Shown here: positions 32,552-35,523 of the stretch, one piece after another
How the letters are laid out: every line of letters starts with the position of its first letter
Position numbering within the stretch: the stretch's first letter is position 1
Origin: Brasilonema sp. CT11
GTDB lineage: Bacteria; Cyanobacteriota; Cyanobacteriia; Cyanobacteriales; Nostocaceae
DNA length: 35,523 nucleotides
Direction of reading: 5' to 3'
Assembly (NCBI RefSeq): GCF_017982655.1
Contig: NZ_JABXYX010000079.1
Coordinates: 1-35,523 of the forward strand
Position numbers and translations under genes: made by a program
Notes under the pieces: model-generated
The model's database searches: none
Told to the model about the DNA's origin: nothing
What the model saw: only the letters and a program-made list of their open reading frames with translations

Positions 32552-32704
32552 GCTCTACTAACAGTTATCAGTTATCAGTGAGACAGCGCTGCAGGAGGGT
32601 CTCCCGACCTAGGTGACTGCGGAGCGCGCAGCGAGACCGAAGGTCTTCCCCGAAGGGCTATCAATCAACTTTAATACTGCTAACTGTTAACTGTTAACAG
32701 GCTT
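32552..32704. repeat. Composite repeat between the Cys-repeat gene and hetR
   Basis: CAGTTAT heptads (32558-32577) lead into a GC-rich core holding AGCGCTGCAGGAGGGT and CAGCGAGACCG-A-AGGTCTTCCCCG, then CTGTTAA heptads (32681-32699). Core modules recur at 10251-10330 and 35116-35292. Confidence 0.8.
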
Positions 32705-33628
<924 letters not shown>

Positions 33629-34071
33629 TTACAAAATTGTCAGTCAATGGAAAGTAAGTAGTATACACCCACATTAGGGTAATGTGTTTCCCTTAGATCA
33701 TCTATTATGCGTTAAGTATGAGTGTTGATGGTAGTCATGGTTGGTAATTAATCCGTGTTTTCAAGCAAAAAATCCGAGCTTGCACTCTATATGTAGAATT
33801 CCCTTAGGAAAAAACCGAAAATTTCTGTCACTTAATCGCAGGTATCATATAGAGCATATACGCAGGATAAACTGCCAACCATTTCGTAAGCGCACCTTTC
33901 CTCTAGAGGCTTGAACCGACACAACAGAAAATTGGTTCCGACAAAGAAGGCATGGTTTCAAGGAGAATACCTGCTTTGAAGAGATTGTTTCAGTTCAACA
34001 ACTAGCTAGTACGTACGGCTAATGGATGATGTATCTTTTAAACAAAGGTAACTTTCGTGGGGTTTACCCTG

Positions 34072-34096
34072 ACTTGTACTGAGCGAAGCCGAAGGG
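34072..34096. repeat. Dispersed repeat CTTGTACTGAGCGAAGCCGA
   Basis: The sequence ACTTGTACTGAGCGAAGCCG continues with AAGGG. Nearly the same string (with GTCGAAG) is a well-known scattered repeat in cyanobacterial genomes. Here it lies about 470 bp upstream of hetR. Confidence 0.5.
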
Positions 34097-34717
34097 TTCT
34101 TGCGAATTTAGGTAGTACTAGGTAGAGCAAGATAATTGTAAGCGAGTTACTCCCTTCCCGCATTTATTCGATATCTTCCCTACAGTTTTAGCCTGCCTCA
34201 ATATAGATCCCGATAGAATGCAGGTTTCAGTGTTTCACCTGCCTTAGTAATAAAGTTGACACAATAATAGGTGGTGCGGCTCTTTGTAAATTGCTGTACT
34301 GCTCAAAACTGATAGTTATGTTTTGGGTGTAAAAGCAACTTCTTTTCGGGAAAATCGCTGACCTTACGTTGAAAAGATAATCCAAGGTTCAAACTACCTT
34401 CCTGTTTCGACAATTTTTGTTAATTTTATCAATCTGGCTGATATAGGAATGTTAGAGAAGATACAAAATCTTCAAGTATTTTTGTTATACAAGGAAAAAT
34501 GACAATCAATTTATGATATTAAATATAATAAAATATTTTTGATTAAATAAAAAGTCTAATATATGGTATAAATATCACTTAAAATCTAAAAAAAATATCA
34601 ACAAAAGGTGCTAATTAACATTTTTTTATCTAATTAATGCTTGACTTATCAGTACTTGTAGACCTTTTTAGAAGTAAACAACATAAATCTATATCTTAAT
34701 AAGTGGAATAAAAGGGT

Positions 34718-34734
34718 GTGGGGTTTAACCCCTC
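34718..34734. promoter_or_regulatory. HetR-type inverted repeat
   Basis: GTGGGGTTTAACCCCTC matches the HetR recognition sequence of the Anabaena hetP promoter (GAGGGGTCTAACCCCTC) at 15 of 17 positions, with the GGGG and CCCC arms intact. It lies 1114 bp before the hetR start. Binding is inferred from similarity only. Confidence 0.65.
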
Positions 34735-34909
34735 AGTCTTAATAAGACAAAATTATGAATAAAACTCTCCTTGTAATAAGTATTAAATTGCTAACAGTAC
34801 ATAAATGAAATGTGTAAAAGACAAACTTTTTTGTAAATTTTCCGGATTTAGTAGTAAAGTTCTGAATTTAGAGCTAACTGTTTATTAACTAAATGCTTAG
34901 TGGGTTTCC

Positions 34910-34937
34910 GGTATAAGATTTCCTTTTTTTCTCCGGA
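34910..34937 (-). promoter_or_regulatory. DIF1-like promoter pointing toward hetR
   Basis: On the minus strand TCCGGA (34937-34932) is followed after 16 bp by TATACC (34915-34910). TCCGGA in the -35 position is the DIF1 motif of promoters switched on in developing heterocysts of Anabaena. A second TCCGGA at 34841-34846 has no obvious -10 partner. Confidence 0.45.
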
Positions 34938-35039
34938 GTTGAAGAACTGCTCGGTTAAGCTTTCCCTACTGCGATAATGGGTAATACTGATTTCAAAAAA
35001 TAATGCGACAGATGGTTAGGTTATGTAGGACACTTAGCT

Positions 35040-35400
35040 CAGAAGAATAGAGGCGTCAGTCGCCACGAGGAGCCAGCACTGCGCACGAGAATTTCCTGAC
35101 CTACTAGGTGTCTAGTGAGACCAGCGCTGCAGGAGGGTTTCCAACGCCAGATACCTCTGTCGGGAAATCCTCCTATGGCACAAAGTGCCACGCTACGCGC
35201 TTCAGTACTGGCTCCTCCGTAGGCACTGGCGTTAGCGCAGCGAGACCGGAGGTCTTCCCCGATAGCCGTAAGGCGTGGCGTTAGCCATAGGGCATTCAGA
35301 ACGAACGAACTGTGGGAGTGCTGAGACAGCGCTATGCTCCAGGTGACGACAACCTCCTGCATAGCGCTAAACTCAGCGTAAGGCGTGGTCGTTTCCACTA
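35040..35400. repeat. Cluster of GC-rich palindromic repeat modules
   Basis: A 360-bp mosaic of modules: AGCGCTGCAGGAGGGT (35123), a 42-bp unit (35173-35214) matching 14492-14534 in reverse, CAGCGAGACCGGAGGTCTTC (35239), a 35-bp unit (35258-35292) identical in reverse to 10251-10285, and two AGCGCTATG arms near 35330 and 35360. A 119-codon minus-strand frame here is repeat-derived. Confidence 0.85.
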
Positions 35401-35476
35401 GTAGTCCATCAAGTCAACTTTGCAGGGTGAAGCAGATTTTTGGTAAGCTAATCGAATTCAGGGTTAGGGTAACATT

Positions 35477-35523
35477 ATGTTAAAAAAATATACCATAAAT
35501 CTCAGTTCAGAAGAAGCCGAAAA
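35477..35523 (+). CDS. Start of an IS630-type transposase, cut by the window edge
   Basis: Fifteen complete codons are visible, MLKKYTINLSSEEAE, followed by the first bases of a lysine codon. This matches the usual beginning of IS630-family transposases in cyanobacteria (M-[LF]-KKY-x-[IV]-x-L-[ST]-x-E-E), a different subgroup from the broken copy at 6001. The identification rests on a very short stretch. Confidence 0.5.
   Translation, partial: MLKKYTINLSSEEAE

Follow-up and report, generated by a model that had tools for sequence, protein, structure and literature searches.

HetR is the master switch for nitrogen-fixing cells in filamentous cyanobacteria. Whether it activates hetR directly or solely by way of HetZ is important for models of heterocyst patterning, and the closest described systems are those of Anabaena sp. 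PCC 7120. The hetP site of this strain is given as GAGGGGTCTAACCCCTC in the excerpted text of PMC4192349, and for the crystal of Anabaena HetR with hetP DNA the available part of PMC4649674 lists contacts to g3, g5, g6, c15 and c16, with Arg62, Lys73 and Glu71 among the contacting residues. At hetR itself, the available sections of PMC7377430 describe two elements upstream of a heterocyst-specific transcription start at -271/-272, one a DIF1 motif and the other a potential HetR site, the latter within -695 to -250; the promoter fragment starts at -695. Substitution of DIF1 abolished the up-regulation of hetR, substitution of the HetR site did not, and the up-regulation was HetZ-dependent (PMC7377430, same sections). 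By ChIP-seq, a HetR peak region called broad lies between alr2338 and hetR (PMC4192349, as excerpted); alr2338 is presumably, judged from position only, the counterpart of the EamA-type gene that precedes hetR in most of the loci considered below. Among the titles and abstract openings listed in searches of an open-access library, none concerned a HetR site in the hetR leader of Brasilonema or Scytonema.

The window analysed here, a 35,523-nucleotide stretch of DNA from Brasilonema sp. CT11, carries hetR on the reverse strand and, upstream of it, the features collected in Table 1. The original prediction had described a near-perfect HetR recognition repeat 1.1 kb above hetR, and this description held: the 17-bp inverted repeat GTGGGGTTTAACCCCTC lies exactly at 34718-34734 of the forward strand, has 15/17 bases in common with the Anabaena hetP site on that strand (14/17 on the hetR strand) and keeps both the G4 and the C4 arm, with its near edge 1,114 bp from the hetR start codon. 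As a conserved element, the dyad extends slightly beyond the 17 bp first described (TGTGGGGTTTAACCCCTCA at 34717-34735) and adjoins a conserved GGG at 34714-34716.

Table 1. Features of the hetR region, with positions counted along the forward strand of the window.
Feature	Position	Strand	Remarks
hetR, 299 aa	32705..33604	-	NCBIfam HetR equivalog, 618.9 bits (cut-off 489)
Remainder of hetR leader	33605..34713	-	conservation in the clade high from about -870 down, lower from the repeat to -870
Candidate -10 box TAAGAT (weak, putative)	34693..34698	-	starts 28 bases from the centre of the repeat (34726), towards hetR
Conserved CCC after the dyad, hetR side	34714..34716	-	CACCC invariant in 12/12
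Full dyad TGAGGGGTTAAACCCCACA (hetR strand)	34717..34735	-	GGGTNNNRCCCNNCA matches both strands at this site
17-bp HetR-type inverted repeat	34718..34734	-	hetR strand GAGGGGTTAAACCCCAC, core GGGTNNNACCC
TCCGGA, DIF1-like palindromic hexamer	34841..34846	.	about 110 bp above the repeat

Within the window, the repeat with up to three mismatches found no match in 100 shuffles, while the looser pattern GTGGGN6CCCCTC with up to two mismatches was not unusual, occurring six times against a shuffle mean of 3.4, with 10 of the 100 shuffles reaching six. Across the 8.79-Mb genome, GTGGGGN5CCCCTC without mismatch occurs in a single copy, 0.30 being expected from base composition, and allowing up to two mismatches gives fewer matches than the control (262 vs 330 for the reversed pattern). 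The sequence by itself is only mildly unusual genome-wide and, because the repeat alone is not rare across the genome, the case for it rests on its place and its conservation. GGGN5CCC occurs a second time in the hetR leader of the window, at 34056-34072 (-468; TCAGGGTAAACCCCACG when read along the hetR strand), and only three of the 12 clade leaders have this copy (the window, L090 and L009). GC-rich, repeat-like stretches were also seen by eye on either side of hetR (window 35050-35300 and 32580-32660), and part of the distal one is common to L008 and absent from L009 and L010 in the alignment.

Conservation was read in the best 80 of 347 hetR loci from named genomes and in 30 loci from other genomes of the family, a second set in which hetR was found in 214 of 217 genomes. 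The original prediction had been staked on conservation of the repeat in close relatives, and this was borne out: in the clade, here the Brasilonema/Scytonema group with HetR at least 95% identical to that of the window, all 12 long-enough leaders (the window, L008, L009, L010, L012, L013, L014, L015, L090, L093, L099 and L100) carry the repeat, at -1089 to -1215. The thirteenth member, L011, whose contig ends at -1246 and which has an insertion, was therefore left out and is the sole clade leader dropped. A maximum-likelihood tree built from 85 hetR genes places the 13 clade rows in one branch (support 100/93) that includes all 12 carriers. Closest to them is a set of six rows, attached with a support of 93/94, below the star level of the tool; the element is absent from the five long-enough neighbours, the sixth, L053, being too short. 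A weight matrix built from the sites gave at least 30.6 inside the clade, and the best score among the 70 long-enough leaders outside it was 15.9, the outside set comprising 72 leaders of which L026 and L053 end before -1.1 kb. Six outside leaders exceeded the largest score of 72 shuffled leaders (13.5), and none of their best hits contained an intact GGGN5CCC; a counterpart of the repeat in other genera was rejected on the difference between the inside and outside scores. GGGN5CCC was found in the last 1,400 bp of 12/12 clade leaders, with 0.57 expected, and in 6/72 of the other leaders (up to 2 kb), with 6.4 expected. The loci read thus do not generally have a HetR site ahead of hetR, since leaders outside the clade lack a comparable site and contain GGGN5CCC at about the expected frequency. 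From the tree, we infer a single gain: the HetR-binding site would have arisen in the Brasilonema/Scytonema ancestor and then been retained.

The pattern of conservation at single bases corresponds closely to the contacts known for HetR. In the alignment of the 12 leaders, 14 of the 21 repeat columns (-1130 to -1110) are invariant vs 27 of 200 in the flanks, a comparison in which columns are treated as independent and relatedness is uncorrected. In the 21-bp register of the HetR-hetP crystal, positions 3, 6-9, 13-16, 19 and 20 (11/21) are both invariant and equal to hetP, with the invariance of fixed letters partly imposed by the motif, written after the alignments had been viewed, with which sites were extracted for scoring, for the column counts, for the TAnnnT spacing and for the footprint; the motif-free alignment shows the same invariance, and a separate scan by GGGN5CCC alone also found the sites. 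The contacted bases g3, g6, c15 and c16, joined by c19 through the dyad symmetry, are invariant in 12/12 (contacts as given in the available part of PMC4649674), the exception being the one-sided contact g5, which is G in 10/12 leaders with its dyad partner at position 17 being C in 9/12. The centre of the repeat varies among the clade leaders. All 12 contain the GGGN5CCC core of the hetP/hetZ-type HetR site, and the CCCNNCA extension of the hetZ consensus is present towards hetR in 12/12 and away from it in 9/12. On the protein side, residues 1-98 of HetR differ from Anabaena HetR only at positions 5, 87 and 94, and Arg62, His69, Glu71, Lys73, Arg74 and Lys76 are identical, such that the residues contacting DNA are unchanged and this HetR is predicted to be able to read the site. 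These sequence comparisons give good support to the repeat as a HetR recognition site, and it is very probably a true site bound by HetR, with a HetR dimer expected to bind the two GGG/CCC half-sites together with the outer G/C pair.

HetR-type sites also recur elsewhere in these genomes. The pattern GGGTNNNRCCCNNCA gave 21 matches (19 distinct places) in the genome of the window vs seven for the reversed pattern, several of them inside reading frames, where they are probably due to chance. It marks hetZ in 13/13 clade genomes, each time with TAnnnT at 33 bases from the centre, and the hetZ site pattern had no match in the two genomes G072 and G073 from outside the clade; in the genome of the window the hetZ site is GGGTCAAGCCCAGCA, centred at -469. 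One further match precedes a HetP-family gene by about 1.6 kb, its CCCNNCA side facing away from hetP. The pattern GAGGGGTNNNACCC is not enriched in this genome (four vs three for the control) and is enriched over 15 genomes taken together (94 vs 32), a count to which G023 contributes 19 of the 94.

Arrays of HetR-type sites were observed before a structured unit. Upstream of murE in the genome of the window, three HetR-type sites about 35 bp apart (G000:C150:9034-9117; L145:2035-2118) precede two copies of a 174-nt unit (G000:C150:9491-10126; L145:2492-3127). This unit has a very stable predicted fold (z -6.57) and a terminator-like 3' hairpin, has no Rfam match (L145 included), and has a DNA match in 164 of 208 genomes of the family. 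Within the clade it is present in 12/13 genomes, with no match in G021 (89% complete), and all 12 carry between three and eight HetR-type sites in the stretch read, while the same strict pattern found none in 11/11 unit loci outside the four genera of the clade. In L196 (G193:C1:9071000-9080500), nine tandem unit matches, one of them partial, alternate at about 571 bp with eight identical sites AGGGGTATTGCCCTGCA, each with TATATT at 32 bases from its centre; the arrays of clade genomes other than G192/G193 show no constant TAnnnT spacing.

At hetR, the upstream neighbour is an EamA-type gene on the same strand in 72/80 loci (Pfam PF00892 in L008), the contig of the window ending before it, and because that gene is on the same strand the site falls between two tandem genes, of which hetR is the one downstream. 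A divergent gene above the site was rejected, since L008-L010 and L012-L015 have the same-strand EamA gene. Between the site and hetR, TAnnnT occurs at 27-29 bases from the centre in 10/12 rows, with none there in L012 and L015, and offset 28 was the most consistent of 145 tested, with TAnnnT in 4.67 of 6 lineage groups and no more than 3.0 at any offset on the other strand. The geometry of hetZ, with TAnnnT at 33, does not occur at hetR, the spacing here being four to five bases below that of hetZ (33) and of the G192/G193 arrays (32), or about half a helical turn. No sigma-70-like pair was present at the site, and the region contained three vs 5.2 expected. Few columns of the leader are invariant directly below the repeat (9/100 and 14/140).

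HetR bound at the repeat would most likely act on transcription of hetR itself. In the simplest form, a distal hetR promoter would be activated whose -10 element is the candidate box TAAGAT, some 28 bases from the centre in the direction of hetR; transcription would begin near -1080 and include roughly 1.1 kb of leader, resulting in direct positive feedback. We infer binding, the direction of its effect, the promoter and the start from these comparisons, and direct distal autoregulation of hetR through the repeat is the best reading, held at roughly an even chance. In its favour are the island of invariant bases, the unchanged HetR contacts, CCCNNCA pointing towards hetR in 12/12, the same-strand EamA gene and TAnnnT at 28; against it are the variation of g5, the spacing of 28 instead of 33 or 32, the rows L012 and L015 without the box, the lack of a sigma-70-like pair, the lack of enrichment of GAGGGGTNNNACCC in this genome, the low conservation directly below the repeat, and the dispensability of the HetR site in 7120 (available sections of PMC7377430). 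Of the two functions originally proposed, autoregulation from the distal site is therefore plausible and still conditional, the spacing and the result in 7120 counting against it, while control of another transcript starting nearby is the less likely, given the same-strand EamA gene in 72/80 loci and the lack of any RGxGR peptide or Rfam family. The distance from the start codon, which had been called unusual for simple activation, is less odd than claimed, the promoter fragment of hetR in 7120 already starting at -695 (PMC7377430, as available).

The main rival to autoregulation from a distal promoter is action at a distance or on read-through from the EamA gene, in which a real HetR site would loop to promoters within the leader (-870 to -1) or block transcription arriving from upstream, with hetR output being buffered. 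Rather unlikely as it is, this has in its favour a well-conserved leader that starts about 250 bp below the site, a -10 spacing that differs from that of hetZ, an EamA gene in tandem with hetR in 72/80 loci and a one-mismatch GGGN5CCC (GGGAGTAACTC, -515 to -635) that recurs in 8/12 rows. A simple loop, however, wants a second strong site, and the exact copy at -468 is confined to 3/12 leaders; a second exact HetR site for looping was rejected, as none is conserved across the clade. It is also conceivable, and distinctly improbable, that the target of the site is a transcript other than hetR mRNA, short or antisense: either a non-coding RNA within the leader or one that starts at the TCCGGA block above the repeat and extends in the direction of the EamA gene. 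The clade does place HetR-type arrays before a conserved structured unit with no known coding gene, and a TCCGGA block stands above the repeat in 10/12 leaders, yet the window, L008, L012 and L015 contain no Rfam family, 33500-35523 contains no terminator-like site, conservation directly below the site is low, and no RGxGR peptide is encoded in the window, for which alone small reading frames were listed. A known RNA family was rejected on the same Rfam comparison with L145 included, and PatX/PatS at the site was rejected with no RGxGR in any of the six frames of the window.

That the repeat is not a HetR site at all, and is instead an intrinsic terminator of the EamA gene, the site of another dyad-binding regulator or a chance occurrence, is very unlikely. 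A short GC-rich dyad below a gene does resemble a terminator, base composition predicts 0.30 exact repeats in each genome, and the reversed control has at least as many near-matches. Against this, terminator-like sites number zero vs 1.8 expected, and the outer pairs that an RNA stem would need are not kept, positions 5/17 forming a G-T wobble in three rows and A-C in two and positions 4/18 forming A-A in nine, with no compensatory change. The invariant positions are largely those touched by HetR, and the repeat is kept in all 12 clade leaders. An intrinsic terminator was rejected, a GC stem followed immediately by a T run occurring on neither strand of 33500-35523.

The DIF1 element of 7120 was followed through the same leaders. 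Exact TCCGGA at -345 to -275 of hetR (about -310) is present in 5/80 loci, all close to one another in the tree, and TAnnnT at 19 bases from TCCGGA was seen in five hetR leaders of the Anabaena group. DIF1 at this Anabaena position was rejected for the clade, where no leader has the exact hexamer there, and the few one-mismatch forms tried gave no match at that position in L008-L015. TCCGGA is found above the repeat in 10/12 clade leaders, none with TAnnnT at 19 bases as in Anabaena hetR, and L013-L015 also have it at -716 to -720, without TAnnnT at 19. The block above the repeat, AATCCGGAARATTNACAAAAA or close to it, was noted at 34841-34846 and 34932-34937 in the window, at -1306 in L012, at -1533 in L013 and at -1538 in L014 and L015; its orientation towards the EamA gene was viewed by eye only. 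Control of hetR through HetZ and DIF1 may be a feature of the Anabaena group and not of heterocyst formers generally, degenerate motifs and other positions being possible.

A more far-reaching interpretation, doubtful and offered tentatively, is that the clade has rewired the switch, with direct distal feedback from HetR to hetR replacing the HetR-HetZ-DIF1 loop and with HetR having gained control of a structured, multi-copy non-coding RNA by way of arrays of three to eight sites. The comparison suggests that heterocyst-forming lineages differ in how the switch is wired, such that results from Anabaena may not transfer, and a near-ideal site in every readable clade leader makes a direct-feedback circuit testable.

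Compared with the hetP site of 7120, the repeat shares 15/17 bases, the GGGT-N3-ACCC core, the outer G and C and the CA that follows, and differs in preceding hetR, at 1.1 kb from the start codon. The hetZ site (GGGTCTAgCCCagCA in 7120) has the same core with CCCNNCA towards the gene; however, TAnnnT lies at 33 bases in 13/13 clade genomes at hetZ and at 28, less strictly kept, at hetR. The hetR promoter of 7120 likewise has GGGN5CCC upstream of hetR, and an EamA-type gene lies upstream in most of the loci examined, whereas the clade site is at -1.1 kb without exact TCCGGA near -310 and the promoter in 7120 is driven by DIF1 and HetZ (PMC7377430, available sections). By sequence, the repeat resembles a HetR site of the hetP/hetZ type and, as a promoter element of hetR, looks like a new variant.
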